From Arbacia lixula (taxonomy: Eukaryota > Echinodermata > Echinoidea > Arbacioida > Arbaciidae): 64,000 nucleotides of DNA. The stretch covers positions 11,340,230 through 11,404,229 of the forward strand of contig OZ022578.1 in the NCBI GenBank assembly GCA_963669155.1. Reading direction: 5' to 3'. The notes under the pieces were generated by a model. The model did no database searches and had not been told where the DNA came from. It saw nothing but the letters and a program-made list of their open reading frames with translations. The position numbers and the translations under genes were made by a program. This document shows positions 30,201-39,200 of the stretch, piece by piece (the first letter of the stretch is position 1; each line of letters begins with the position of its first letter).

Positions 30201-33200
30201 AATGCGGTCAGTTCTACGTTGGAGAAACCGGAAGAAGCCTTAGGACCAGACTCAAGGAACACCAGACCAGCTTTAGACGGAACGAGTGGGAGAAATCAGC
30301 TATCGTCAAACATGCTCAGCAACAGAATCATCGCATCGACTGGTCCAACGCAGAACTCATCACATCCATTAAGCACTGGCACACCCGGCGCGTGAGAGAA
30401 GCCATCGAGATTCTTCAACACGACACGGTACCACAGGAGAGCGGACTTGTGATCAACGATATCTGGATGCCACTACTTCTTCACCACGCACACCGGCAGC
30501 ACCACCACGCACAACGCACACGGGACGACGACCTACCCGAAAGCTCGGGGAATTGAATACGCCGCACTTTCGCGCCGTTTCACGCTCCAGTGCACACCGC
30601 GCATTCGCGCCGCACTTTCGCACCTATTCAGCTGTTTCACGCTCTAGTGCACACAGCACATTCGCGCCGAAACGCTCTATTCCTATTGGCTGATTTCGGA
30701 CACTCTCGGGTTATTTCGGATCCCTTCGGATCACATAAATACCCGGCGCGCTCGTTAGTTTCTTCGAGTTATTCTCCGGATGACGGACAGAGCACACTGC
30801 CCGAAACGTCGAGACTGATACTCCCTCTTTCAGATTTTGAAAGAAATCTATAGTTAGTTGCAGAACTGACTATAACTTTTCTACACCTTTCTCATTTTCT
30901 TTTCTTGTCTTTTCTCTTTATCACTACTTTGTGACTAGTTCACAACTTTCATCAACACCCACCCTCTTCTTCTACCTCCATTCCATCCCATTTATTTTCG
31001 GTTTTAAAAACACCGAAAACTAAAGCTAAAAATAGTCTTGTGTAAATGTTATAAAATATAAAAAAAAATTCACCTCTCCTTTTCACTTTTCACTTTCCTT
31101 TCCTTTCTTCACCCCATAAGTGGGCCAATTATCCGAAAGAATACAACCACATGGTGTTACCGAAAGTTTTGCTATTTTCTAAATAGTATTTATTAGTACA
31201 CTCCACCATGGAAACATTCAAAGAACATTTAATCAATCTTTATCTTGGACGTATGACAACACAACTTACTCTTCAGCAGTTTTCAGTGATTTTTGGTGAA
31301 GTATTTTATTTTGTAAATAAATGGCTGAATGAATAAATAATTTTATGTATTTTTATATATCATGAATGAGCCCAGTTGGATTGGACTGATATAGTGATAT
31401 ACAAGCTCATGTGACCACTAACCAATGATGTCATCTGCTCATTCTCTCAGACTCTGTACATAGCAATGGATGAACCTGATGGAGTGCTGGGTGTGTCTGC
31501 AATCAGACTACAGGAACCAAGTCTGAGGGAACAGATACATGACCATGAGAGTACTGGTAAGTCTAGTCTAGTCTAGTCTCAGACCCTGTACATAGCAATG
31601 GATGAACCTGATGGAGTACTGGGTGTGTCTGCAATCAGACTACAGGAACCAAGTCTTAGGGAGCAGATACATGACCATGAGAGTACTGGTAAGTCTAGTC
31701 TAGTCTAGTCTAGTCTAGTCTCAGACCCTATACATAGCAATGGATGAACCTGATGGAGTGCTGGGTGTGTCTGCAATCAGACTACAAGAACCAAGTCTGA
31801 GGGAGCAGATACATGACCATGAGAGTACTGGTAAGTCTAGTCTAGTCTAGTCTAGTCTAGTCTAGTCTAGTCTCAGACCCTATACATAGCAATGAATGAA
31901 CCTGATGGAGTACTGGGTGTGTCTGCAATCAGACTACAAGAACCAAGTCTGAGGGAGCAGATACATGACCATGAGAGTACTGGTAAGTCTAGTCTAGTCT
32001 AGTCTAGTCTAGTCTAGTCTAGTCTAGTCTAGTCTAGTCTCAGACCCTATACATAGCAATGAATGAACCTGATGGAGTACTGGGTGTGTCTGCAATCAGA
32101 CTACAGGAACCAAGTCTGAGGGAGCAGATACATGACCATGAGAGTACTGGTAAGTCTAGTCTAGTCTAGTCTCAGACCCTATACATAGCAATGGATGAAC
32201 CTGATGGAGTGCTGGGTGTGTCTGCAATCAGACTACAAGAACCAAGTCTGAGGGAGCAGATACAGTTGTCCTCAAAATTATTCATACCCTTGTTAATTTT
32301 TATGATTTTTTATTTTTGTGATGAAATGAATGCATTTTGTCAAGTGTGTATATCAGTTATATGTGACCTACATGTGAAAGAATAACAACAATACACAATT
32401 CAAGAAATTCATCATTTCAGGGGTATTTTATTCATGGATTTTCAAAAAATGCCATGTTCAAAATTATTCATACCCTAAGTTTACTGAGTCCAATGTCTTT
32501 CTTTAATAGTCAATAGCATAGCCTTTGTTTCTTATGACTGCTTCTAGACGGTTCTTGTACGTGTCCACAAGCTTCCTGCATGTCTTCTGGGGGATGTTGG
32601 CCCACTCTTCCTTGGCAAAAGCCTCAAGCTGGGACAGGTTGGTCGGTTTCCTAGCCAACACTCTGGTCTTCAAGTCTCGCCACAAGTTCTCAATTGGATT
32701 CAGGTCAGGACTCCGACTTGGCCATTCGAGGACGTTGACATCATTGTCCTTGAACCATTTCTTCACTACCTTGGCGGTATGTTTTGGATCATTGTCCTGC
32801 TGGTACTTCCAATTAGGGCCAAGCTGGAGTTTCTCAGCGGATTCCTTCACGTTTTCATCAAGGATCGTGATGTAATCCTCCTTTCTCATGATTCCTTGGA
32901 CCTTGACGAGGTTGCCTGTGCCACTGGAAGAGAAGCATCCCCATAGCATTATGTTTCCACCACCATGCTTGACGGTGGGCACAGTGTTCTTTGGAGTGTA
33001 TGCTTCTCCTTTTTTCCTCCAGACGTATTCAACATCCATATGGCCAAATAACTCCAACTTTGTCTCATCAGACCACAGGATGGTTGACCAAAAGCTGGAA
33101 TCTTGCTTTAGATGACCTTTAGCAAAGGCTAGGCGAGCTTCCAGATGCTTCTTCCTGAGCAGCGGGGTCTTCCGAGGCCTACGTCCATGGAGACCTCCTC

Positions 33201-36200: not shown

Positions 36201-39200
36201 CTAGTCTCAGACCTTATACATAGCAATGGATGAACCTGATGGAGTGCTGGGTGTGTCTGCAATTAGACTACAGGAACCAAGTCTGAGGGAGCAGATACAT
36301 GACCATGAAAGCACTGGTAAGTCTAGTCTAGTCTAGTCTCAGACCCTATACGTGTATGAACCTGATGGAGTGCTGGGTGTGTCTGCAATCAGACTACAGG
36401 AACCAAGTCTGAGGGAGCAGATACATGACCATGAAAGCACTGGTAAGTCTAGTCTAGTCTAGTCTCAGACCCTGTACATAGCAATGGATGAACCTGATGG
36501 AGTACTGGGTGTGTCTGCAATCAGACTACAAGAACCAAGTCTGAGGGAGCAGATACATGACCATGAGAGTACTGGTAAGTCTAGTCTAGTCTAGTCTAGT
36601 CTCAGACCCTATACATAGCAATGGATGAACCTGATGGAGTACTGGGTGTGTCTGCAATCAGACTACAAGAACCAAGTCTGAGGGAGCAGATACATGACCA
36701 TGAGAGTACTGGTAAGTCTAGTCTAGTCTAGTCTAGTCTCAGACCCTATACATAGCAATGGATGAACCTGATGGAGTACTAGGTGTGTCTGCAATCAGAC
36801 TACAAGAACCAAGTCTGAGGGAGCAGATACATGACCATGAGAGTACTGGTAAGTCTAGTCTAGTCTAGTCTAGTCTCAGACCCTGTACATAGCAATGGAT
36901 GAACCTGATGGAGTACTGGGTGTGTCTGCAATCAGACTACAAGAACCAAGTCTGAGGGAGCAGATACATGACCATGAGAGTACTGGTAAGTCTAGTCTAG
37001 TCTAGTCTAGTCTCAGACCCTGTACATAGCAATGGATGAACCTGATGGAGTACTAGGTGTGTCTGCAATTAGACTACAAGAACCAAGTCTGAGCATGGAC
37101 CTATCATGGATGGACTGCGCTCGGATAGTCTTCCTTTGATCTATGAGGTCCGCCGCCTCATAAAAATTCAAGACATTCAGGTGTTTTAAGCAATTACCTG
37201 TATTTCTAATTAGGTAGTGCCTTCATCTGAATTACAAAAGAAAATCTGTTTTGAGAAGTATGTCAACCGCTTTGCCTTCGCTGGGAGCTCGTAGCTGACC
37301 TTTTCACACTCACTGTGAATTAGTTTTGGGTTGAGCGAATGGAAATTTTGATAAAATTGTAGAAAGAATTTGATCCGTAACTTTTTCGGACACCTCCGCA
37401 CACGAAACTGAGGTTGTTTCCATGAAAGATGAAACACTCAATAAACGATTTACAAGGTATTTTTAAGGAAATATGGTTCGGAAATGTGCGATATGGAGGC
37501 ATTTCTCTGGCATGTTTTCTACAGTATTCTTCTTTTATTACAAAAACGAAGCAACAATATAATCTGAAATTCGCAGAATCGTATCTTTATAAGATGTAAT
37601 ACTACTGCACATGCACTTCAGTTCATGAAGTGGTTCGGAAATCTTCTGCGCATACAGAATATATATTACTCAAAATGCATCCTTCATTCTGTCATGCTTG
37701 TTTGGCGGCGGACCTCCCTCGATCAAAGAGCCAAACGCGTCGAATATTCCATTGTGATATCAATGCACGCGACTGCTGTAGGAATAAATTACACTTCGTG
37801 CTGACTCCATTCTTTACACCTCTCTGGTCTGAGGGAGCAGATACATGACCATGAGAGTACTGGTAAGTGGTCAGGTCGATGGACAGCATTTCTACAGAAC
37901 TTGCTTCACAGGTACCATTTGTATGAAGATGTGTTGTAGTACTGGTAGATCCATAAATCCTCTTTAATACAGGTGCATTACTATCATACCAGGCGGGTGT
38001 TTCACCAAGCTGTTTGTAAGTTACGAACGACTTTACAAACGACTGGTGATCCCTTCTTGTGCTAAATGCGATACCACACTTTGTTCATTGAGAATCTCAT
38101 TTAGCACAAGTAGGGATCACCAGTCATTTGTAACTTATGAACAGCTTGATGAAACACCCGCTAGTATACATAATTTTGTAATTAACAAAATGATAGATCA
38201 ATAGTACGGAAGATGTTGATCATCGTGGTAGTAGTATCGCTAGAGTAGTAATCTGTTGTCTCACGAAAAGGCAAACTGGAGATTGCGACGTTTCGACCGC
38301 TACTGCTAGTCTTCGTCAGGCAATGTGGACAATAGTCGCTGCGCGCGTCTTTTATAGCGTAAGCTGCGTTCCGAAAGTGCCGGAACCGCCGCGCTGCGAT
38401 TGGTCGGCGCACTCAACCAATCACTAGCCGCGGACGGTGCGACACCCAGGCGGGTAGCGGACGTCGGGGAAAGCCCCCCGGTTGGCGGCGGCATCGCGGG
38501 CGGGCAAACACTGGTGGTAGCTGCACAACTGCTACTGTGGTTAGAAGCGGGCGTCGGAAGGCGGTCAAGCGCAGAGTTACGGGGGGTCGCGGGTCAAGAA
38601 TGGTAGAGCACCGCAGAGATGTCAAGCATCGGCGCATAGATAGTTCGGCAGTCGCAGAGCATGCTTGGAATGCAGATCACCCTCCCAATTGGGACGCGGT
38701 AAGCTGCATAGCGCGGGATAAGCACTGGTACACACGGCGTGTTAAAGAGGCTATCCAAATCCGCTTACATCCGAATAACATCAATAGGGATAACGGCATT
38801 GAGATCCCCGAGGAATGGCTTCCGACCATCCGCCGCCATGCGCCACCCGCGACCCCCCGTAACTCTCCGCTTGACCGCCTTCCGACGCCCGCTTCTAACC
38901 ACAGTAGCAGTTGTGCAGCTACCGCCAGTGTTCGCCCGCCCGCGACGCCGCCGCCAACCGGGGGGCTTTCCCCGACGTCCGCTACCCGCCCGGATGTCGC
39001 ACCGTCCGTGGCTAGTGATTGGTCGAGTGCGCCGACCAATCGCAGCGCGGCGGTTCCGGCACCTTCGGAACGCAGCTTACGCTATAAAAGACGCGCGCAG
39101 CGACTATTGTCCACATTGCCTGACGAAGACTAGCAGTAGCGGTTGAAACGTCGCAATCTCCAGTTTGCCTTTTCGTGAGACAACAGATTACTACTCTAGC

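Follow-up and report, generated by a model that had tools for sequence, protein, structure and literature searches.

Minisatellites that lie on exon edges, named mirage minisatellites, are to our knowledge known from amphioxus only. The marks of such an array would be a genuine exon at its border with unique sequence on the far side, internal copies that evolve in concert and differ from the edge copies, and lengths that are unstable between haplotypes or cells. Another arrangement built from tandem exon copies is the Dscam type of mutually exclusive exon cluster, in which one copy per mRNA gives the reading frame; its copies would encode different peptides and be accompanied by docking and selector sequences. 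According to the accessible parts of the amphioxus papers, mirages occur in the Adh3, globin, and TnC genes, with similar repeats in PGBD5; their tandem units lie across 5' or 3' exon-intron edges, many carry AG or GT signals, the clusters undergo concerted evolution, and regular splicing is reportedly undisturbed (PMC3087553, PMC3902484). Tandem repeat elements are also mentioned, in the available part of a further paper, for the amphioxus huntingtin gene (PMC2206037). The ATR gene of the sea urchin Arbacia lixula contains arrays that resemble mirages in that their repeat units span exon-intron boundaries. They differ from what the accessible parts describe in that the host is an echinoid, one unit comprises an entire exon together with its two splice sites, several arrays lie in one gene (one of them repeating the stop-codon end), and the whole-exon array has 30 copies, whereas the globin gene BflGb6 has 6 or 3 units (PMC3087553, PMC3902484). 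In human segmental duplications, minisatellite expansion likewise touches exons and splice sites; however, the internal tandem repeats covered by the available text have a mean of 30-bp units × 4 and belong to recently duplicated gene families, whereas the ATR units are 61 to 150 bp long in a conserved gene (PMC2812944). Duplicates of exon 4 in earthworm metallothionein are absent from the final transcript, as we propose for most ATR copies, but the accessible part of that source describes no exon-plus-splice-site minisatellite (PMC12783039). Among the papers listed by searches of the open-access literature, there was no report of exon-edge minisatellites in sea urchins or of a comparable whole-exon array.

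The window analyzed here is a 64,000-nucleotide stretch of the A. lixula genome (contig OZ022578.1, positions 11,340,230 to 11,404,229), and all coordinates below refer to it. A gene model of 39 exons on the forward strand (166..59125, stop codon at 59123-59125) encodes the C-terminal 1,769 codons of ATR; exon 1 of the model is partial, as the window starts within the gene. The model was built with the echinoid ATR P0003 (Diadema) as reference, joins being picked among stop-free GT...AG pairs, and it has GT and AG at all joins and a single terminal stop. The shortest of its 38 introns measures 293 nt. The model protein is 86% identical to ATR of two other urchins (Strongylocentrotus ATR, 86%); in homolog searches, the closest homologs are sea urchin ATR (85 to 88% identity), with Branchiostoma at 60% and 57%. 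A further search with the C-terminal part, at E up to 1e-200, gave 29 hits with a best identity of 74%, none of them a fragment from A. lixula itself. One could suppose that this ATR is decaying or already defunct and that an intact gene lies elsewhere, and arrays do occur at many of its exon edges; however, a 39-exon model that can be joined throughout to a single stop, at this level of identity to two urchins, makes such a supposition scarcely probable. The peptide of the repeated exon matches ATR chains in the PDB (E ~3e-8) and corresponds to residues 1794-1828 of Diadema ATR (P0003), at the end of the Pfam M-HEAT_ATR domain (1598-1825) and ahead of the Pfam FAT domain (1888-2223); its description as a FAT-domain exon in the earlier note is thus not upheld.

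Between the ATR exons at 27851..28032 and 39599..39749 (both forward strand), a single ATR exon recurs 30 times, head to tail and in the same orientation, at 31451..37862 (28 copies intact, 2 interrupted), the place and approximate copy number that the earlier note had given. The TRF score of 4987 for the longer part of the array excludes a chance origin. The intact copies comprise 22 of 106 nt and six of 100 nt, the latter carrying an in-frame 6-nt deletion; four consecutive copies without these 6 nt lie at 35068..35540 (forward strand), and the other two begin at 35958 and 36343. The deletion removes two residues of the motif L-Y-x-x-x-x-E-P-D-G, the spacing of which is constant in all 113 homologs in which it was found (149 examined, non-independent and mostly vertebrate, 36 of them without a visible motif). 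Donors are GTAAGT in 26 intact copies and GTTAGT in 2, and TCTCAG stands at the acceptor of the copies. In the one haplotype covered, spacers measure 21 to 61 nt, as previously stated, and differ in 5-nt steps; the formula GTA(AGTCT)nCAG is exact in 24 of the 28 spacers 3' of intact copies, and the first spacer (31557..31582, forward strand) reads GTA(AGTCT)4CAG. The same 35-residue peptide is encoded by 18 of the 28 intact copies, and the other 10 have one or two residue differences or the two-residue deletion.

Two different insertions interrupt the array. Copy 6 (32176-32262 and 33962-33980) is split by an element on the reverse strand (32263..33959) with TA on each side and an open 354-codon frame, which we take to be of the Tc1/mariner family; a second copy of this element, 98.8% identical, lies at 62117-63815. 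The last copy (37017-37093 and 37834-37862) is split by a 733-bp insertion at 37094..37826 (no strand assigned) flanked by 7-bp GTCTGAG repeats. The copy at the downstream edge is accordingly broken, an observation that favors copy 1 over the opposite edge. Tandem repeats are difficult to assemble, the copy number may be off, and a 150-bp repeat pair farther downstream (46778-47076) is even 100% identical, all of which would suit an assembly artefact that inflated a single exon into an array. This is nevertheless very unlikely, as the 28 intact copies comprise 24 distinct sequences, differing by 4.2% on average across the last 88 nt, the spacers change in regular steps, and the two insertions with their short flanking direct repeats lie within the array.

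A single copy restores the ATR frame in the model, and copy 1 (31451..31556, forward strand; donor GTAAGT) makes in-frame joins to 27851-28032 and 39599-39749. None of the 28 intact copies has a stop in this frame, as the earlier note had observed for the copies it read. In the shifted frame that a second copy in the mRNA would adopt, all 28 contain stops, the first at codon 5 or 7, and unspliced read-through from any of the 30 copies ends at a stop within 36 to 69 codons. It had been argued that one copy, or four, would keep the frame and two or three would break it; the one-copy and two-copy parts are borne out, but four copies do not restore the frame, because wherever two intact copies are joined in an mRNA, the second one brings a stop. 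These results agree with the suggestion that every copy except one has to be skipped, since one copy restores the frame and two intact copies run into stops. Splicing of both members of an adjacent pair appears unlikely, as had been proposed, with spacers far under the shortest intron of the gene.

The acceptors of copy 1 and the later copies have different contexts. At copy 1, the acceptor is preceded by 43 nt free of AG, a CTAAC lying 30 nt upstream, and all 38 genuine acceptors (copy 1 included) have an AG-free zone of at least 20 nt, with no AG within the last 20 nt. All 29 later copies have an AG 4 nt upstream of the acceptor and three AGs within the last 20 nt, the AGs recurring about every 5 nt. 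The acceptor matrix score is 8.8 for copy 1 and 0.4 to 3.0 for the later copies. The branch-point pattern is a poor test, being absent from many genuine acceptors too. Among the 38 genuine acceptors are two with scores in the range of the later copies (1.3 and 2.1), and according to the accessible part of one study, AGs at close spacing can compete and yet not block a site (PMC1431707); the later acceptors may therefore be weak rather than dead.

Copies of exon edges recur elsewhere in the gene, 8 of the 36 ATR exons tested having such copies nearby. The repeat unit includes exon sequence in 6 of 11 minisatellite arrays, compared with 1.6 expected by random placement (P ~0.002, with thresholds set after the data had been seen). 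All of the following lie on the forward strand. A degenerate copy of exon 3151-3246 at 3363..3481 retains parts of both edges. Exon 20511-20630 has its 3' end, donor side included, copied three more times at 20772..21216. The 79-bp array (21682..23621, ~25 units) repeats the last 57 nt of exon 21450-21738 together with 22 nt of intron; its units have a donor-like site, and no normal acceptor was seen in them. The 150-bp pair belongs to a stretch at 46778..47271, in which the 3' part of exon 46695-46873 with its donor occurs twice and is followed by a degenerate copy. In a 64-bp array (48725..49168, 7 units), exon 49148-49216 contributes its acceptor and first 21 nt, the genuine exon standing at the downstream edge, and in a 102-bp array (51931..52217, 2.8 units), exon 51876-51965 contributes its 3' end and the donor side. 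The 61-bp array (59080..61317, 37 units) repeats the end of the last coding exon with the stop codon (FATC end) and extends into the 3' flank. The 79-bp, 64-bp, and 61-bp arrays adjoin a genuine exon, just as the 30-copy array has unique intron 5' of copy 1. The unit of the 30-copy array spans both exon edges, and the other arrays include donor-only or acceptor-only units; repeats of this kind at other exon edges point to a minisatellite process, not to a regulated exon cluster.

A regulated cluster of the Dscam kind would share with this locus the tandem exon copies and the frame break on double inclusion. The ATR array departs from that type in its near lack of peptide diversity and in later copies without normal acceptors. 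With an identical peptide in 18 of the 28 intact copies and slight differences in the others, there is little to choose between them; regulated choice is extremely improbable, and the label "extreme mutually exclusive exon cluster" does not suit an array in which 29 of 29 later copies are without a normal acceptor context.

The reading we prefer, with a probability of roughly two in three on the strength of the DNA sequence, is that the array is a mirage-type minisatellite in which copy 1 is the working exon and the later copies are mostly removed as intron. We infer that tandem duplication took one ATR exon, flanked on either side by ~6 nt of intron (GTAAGT, TCTCAG), and grew to 30 copies, and the AGTCT in the junction would have expanded as a pentanucleotide repeat. 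The working exon of the pre-mRNA would be copy 1, presumably chosen because the native 3' splice site is kept there, and its donor would be joined to the exon at 39599; the 29 later copies would mostly leave as intron, because the AG-filled spacers are too short for a branch point and a pyrimidine tract, the donors being mostly kept. mRNAs that include two copies by mistake would run into a stop and presumably be degraded. The copies may be kept alike by gene conversion and unequal exchange, and selection on the working copy would filter the variants that spread. Thirty exon copies with both splice hexamers constitute a natural experiment on how the spliceosome chooses among near-identical neighbors, and the sequence predicts that acceptor context decides which copy is spliced. 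Several mirage-like arrays in one echinoid gene suggest that the process is wider among deuterostomes or had multiple origins; exon-edge arrays may supply material from which new exons and introns could form, and they may conceal length variation in a gene of the DNA-damage checkpoint.

Alternatively, the copies could form an interchangeable exon battery, in which any intact copy is spliced, the short spacers and the broken frame limiting this to one per mRNA, and selection acts on all of them. The open frames, donors, and TCTCAG acceptors of the 28 intact copies agree with this, as does the strong synonymous excess among the 22 full-length copies (14 synonymous and 4 non-synonymous differences, P ~6e-6 to 6e-5), for which selection acting throughout the array would be a direct explanation and which in that respect speaks against the copy-1 view. 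Over the last 90 nt shared by all 28 copies, the excess is weaker (10 versus 7, P 0.003 to 0.015), some of the 7 non-synonymous differences sitting at the junction of the 6-nt deletion. A similar excess is found in the 79-bp array, which should be untranslatable (9 versus 4, P 0.0015 to 0.0035, over 23 units; the divergent second unit had escaped the search pattern, and the last, a truncated one, was left out), and a weak one in the 61-bp array (7 versus 9, P 0.02 to 0.08). The synonymous excess is therefore no proof that every copy is used, and we rejected it as such. In the 79-bp array, fewer sites are variable at codon positions 1 and 2 than in the intronic part (3/38 versus 8/22, P 0.012), with no clear gap in the 61-bp array (6/30 versus 6/16, P 0.29). 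When the three arrays are pooled, synonymous and non-synonymous variants number 8 to 10 among singletons and 22 to 7 among shared variants (Fisher P 0.06), so that singletons look less filtered than shared variants. The dense AGs at later acceptors and a two-residue deletion that six copies carry and none of the 113 motif-bearing homologs has also count against the battery, which we regard as unlikely. Similarly unlikely is a redundant battery in which sub-minimum spacers and the 3n+1 exon length enforce one copy per mRNA, amounting to mutually exclusive splicing without diversity; as that copy could be any intact one, selection would keep most of the 28 coding, and the array, if so, would buffer an essential checkpoint gene against the loss of an exon.

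When a battery was simulated by letting selection act on all copies, the synonymous fractions were 0.80 and 0.81. Singletons and shared variants were equal in one of these models (0.83 and 0.78); in the other, they were 6 to 4 and 47 to 9, and equality was not clear. With selection on copy 1 only, a first simulation yielded 0.32 (0.26 and 0.34 with copy 1 as the favored source), and a population simulation with crossing-over alone yielded 0.30 to 0.32. Under the strongest gene conversion, the population simulation reached 0.50 pooled, 0.66 for shared variants, and 0.34 for singletons, and 6 of 30 runs attained 0.69; the models are crude, the population model holding 120 haplotypes with 30 runs per setting. 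Selection at the array edge alone was rejected as a simple cause of the synonymous excess, only the strongest gene-conversion setting having come near, and the heavy conversion needed to arrive at 0.50 weighs against the copy-1 view. Two substitutions, at exon positions 3 and 81, are private to copy 1 within the set of 22 full-length copies, and both are synonymous. The mean distance of copy 1 to the other copies is 4.1%, no greater than the overall mean of 4.2%, a further observation on the side against copy 1.

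The main array of ATR exon copies is real and striking. Repeat analysis of the window sequence places it at 31451-37862, as the earlier note did, and counts 30 tandem copies (about 30 had been claimed), 28 of them intact; 22 of the intact copies are 106 nt long and 6 are 100 nt, and all 28 are open in the ATR frame, as had been stated. The array is best read from its sequence as a whole-exon mirage minisatellite (an exon-edge tandem repeat) within the ATR gene of an echinoid, in which copy 1 (31451-31556) is the predicted working exon; mirage minisatellites are already known from amphioxus (PMC3087553, PMC3902484), and the whole-exon unit is the new twist here. 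The spacers measure 21 to 61 nt, exactly the range claimed, and those after intact copies have the form GTA(AGTCT)nCAG in 24 of 28 cases and a single substitution each in the other 4; the pattern also matches the spacer behind the split copy, outside these 28. This junction sequence suggests how the array started: the ATR exon may have been duplicated together with GTAAGT and TCTCAG, creating AGTCT at the junction, which would then have expanded. One copy is split by an element at 32263-33959, presumably Tc1/mariner-like, with TA at both flanks and an open reading frame, which shares 98.8% identity with a second copy downstream (62117-63815), and the last copy is interrupted by 733 bp of inserted sequence (37094-37826) with GTCTGAG repeats on either side.

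The gene model in the window, built with Diadema ATR as reference and with joins picked from GT...AG pairs that leave the frame open, comprises 39 exons, of which the first is partial, connected by 38 joins; it has 1,769 codons and a single terminal stop. When the joined exons were searched against proteins, sea urchin ATR (Strongylocentrotus, Lytechinus, Diadema) came top among the best 120 of 480 matches, and PDB chains of ATR match the peptide of the array exon. The modelled protein is identical at 86% to Strongylocentrotus, 86% to Lytechinus, 85% to Diadema, 68% to Patiria, and 57% to Branchiostoma ATR; the Strongylocentrotus and Lytechinus proteins share 95% identity, so the DNA most probably comes from an echinoid that is not closely related to those two. 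The array-exon peptide corresponds to residues 1794-1828 of Diadema ATR, where Pfam M-HEAT_ATR ends, ahead of Pfam FAT. Its first codon encodes Thr, which is found in 5 of 107 matched homologs (Lys in 92).

The acceptor of copy 1 has CTAAC 30 nt ahead of the exon, is AG-free for 43 nt, and is 82% pyrimidine over positions -20 to -4, whereas in all 29 later copies the closest AG lies 4 nt upstream of the acceptor and three AGs fall within the last 20 nt; an AG-free zone of at least 20 nt precedes all 38 genuine ATR acceptors. Scored with a matrix derived from the 37 remaining genuine ATR acceptors, copy 1 reaches 8.8 and the later copies 0.4 to 3.0; leave-one-out scores of the genuine acceptors range from 1.3 to 18.5, with 2 of 38 below 3.0. 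Neighbouring AGs can compete with a splice site and still leave it usable (PMC1431707), so the later acceptors look weak by sequence, not provably dead. The branch-point readout covered 5 of the 29 later copies and is a weak test, because many genuine acceptors lack the pattern too. The shortest of the 38 ATR introns is 293 nt, and the array spacers are far shorter. All 28 intact copies have good donors (GTAAGT in 26, GTTAGT in 2). Since the insertion at 37094-37826 disrupts the copy at the downstream edge, copy 1 is the sole intact edge copy.

The exon length of 3n+1 holds for the 106-nt and 100-nt classes alike, and one copy restores the ATR frame in the gene model, as the earlier note had proposed. 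The frame in which a second copy would be read contains stops in 28/28 intact copies, the first at codon 5 or 7; therefore two or three copies fail, as predicted, and so do four, which had wrongly been expected to keep the frame. Unspliced read-through from each of the 30 copies meets a stop after 36 to 69 codons at most.

When each of 36 ATR exons (the earlier gene model, before three upstream exons were added) was compared with the window, 8 had nearby copies of exon sequence including an edge. Besides exon 31451, repeated whole in the main array, these are exon 3151 (a degenerate copy with parts of both edges), exon 20511 (donor edge, 3 copies), exon 21450 (donor edge, 79-bp array), exon 46695 (donor edge, 150-bp repeat), exon 49148 (acceptor edge, 64-bp array), exon 51876 (donor edge, 102-bp array), and exon 58952 (stop-codon end, 61-bp array of 37 copies). 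Exon sequence lies within the unit of 6 of 11 arrays, against 1.6 expected under random placement (P ~0.002), where arrays were defined by period of at least 30 and score of at least 150, cut-offs set after the arrays were seen, and the halves of the main array counted as one. Most of the ~25 units of the 79-bp array (21682-23621) carry the last 57 nt of the ATR exon, and their GTGAGT or GCGAGT sites form a cluster of about two dozen possible decoy donors. The 37 units of the 61-bp array (59080-61317), spaced at 61 in 36/36 steps, encode the FATC C-terminus of ATR together with its stop codon and extend into the 3' flank of the gene. The degenerate copy of exon 46695-46873 at 47074-47271 contains a GACTTT hexanucleotide repeat of 9.3 units.

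Of the variants seen across the 22 full-length copies, 14 are synonymous and 4 non-synonymous (synonymous expectation, 26 to 31%), an excess that would fit every copy being in use; over the last 90 nt of all 28 intact copies the counts are 10 and 7. Yet synonymous to non-synonymous variants number 9 to 4 in 23 units of the 79-bp array, which lack a normal acceptor, and 7 to 9 in the 37 units of the 61-bp array, past the stop. A crude population model yielded a synonymous fraction of 0.81 when every copy was under selection (shared variants, 0.78; singletons, 0.83); when copy 1 alone was selected, it yielded 0.30 to 0.32 under crossing-over, 0.36 under some conversion, and 0.50 under heavy conversion (shared, 0.66; singletons, 0.34). 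The pooled observed counts are 22 to 7 for shared variants and 8 to 10 for singletons (Fisher P 0.06), a difference that is at most a hint, because a simpler model with all copies selected (fraction, 0.80) gave 47 to 9 and 6 to 4. The variant data thus lean toward heavy conversion with one filtered copy and do not settle the matter. Each of the six 100-nt copies is missing two residues from a motif; of 149 homologs checked, 113 have this motif, and all 113 preserve its spacing. The 100-nt copies stand grouped in the array, as though multiplied themselves, which suggests that they are dispensable as exons.

Two further arrays, at 8923-10693 and 18728-19784, with periods of 242-243 and 486 bp, lie inside the 15.6-kb intron 4907-20510 and by eye have words in common on opposite strands. 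Upstream of the main array, an open frame at 29498-30556 (+) looks by eye like the terminal part of a presumed Penelope-like element that carries a GIY-YIG-like segment, and a partial copy of it lies inverted at 28793-29509 (-). The second Tc1-like copy (62117-63815) directly follows the ATR gene, its transposase frame broken into two open frames.
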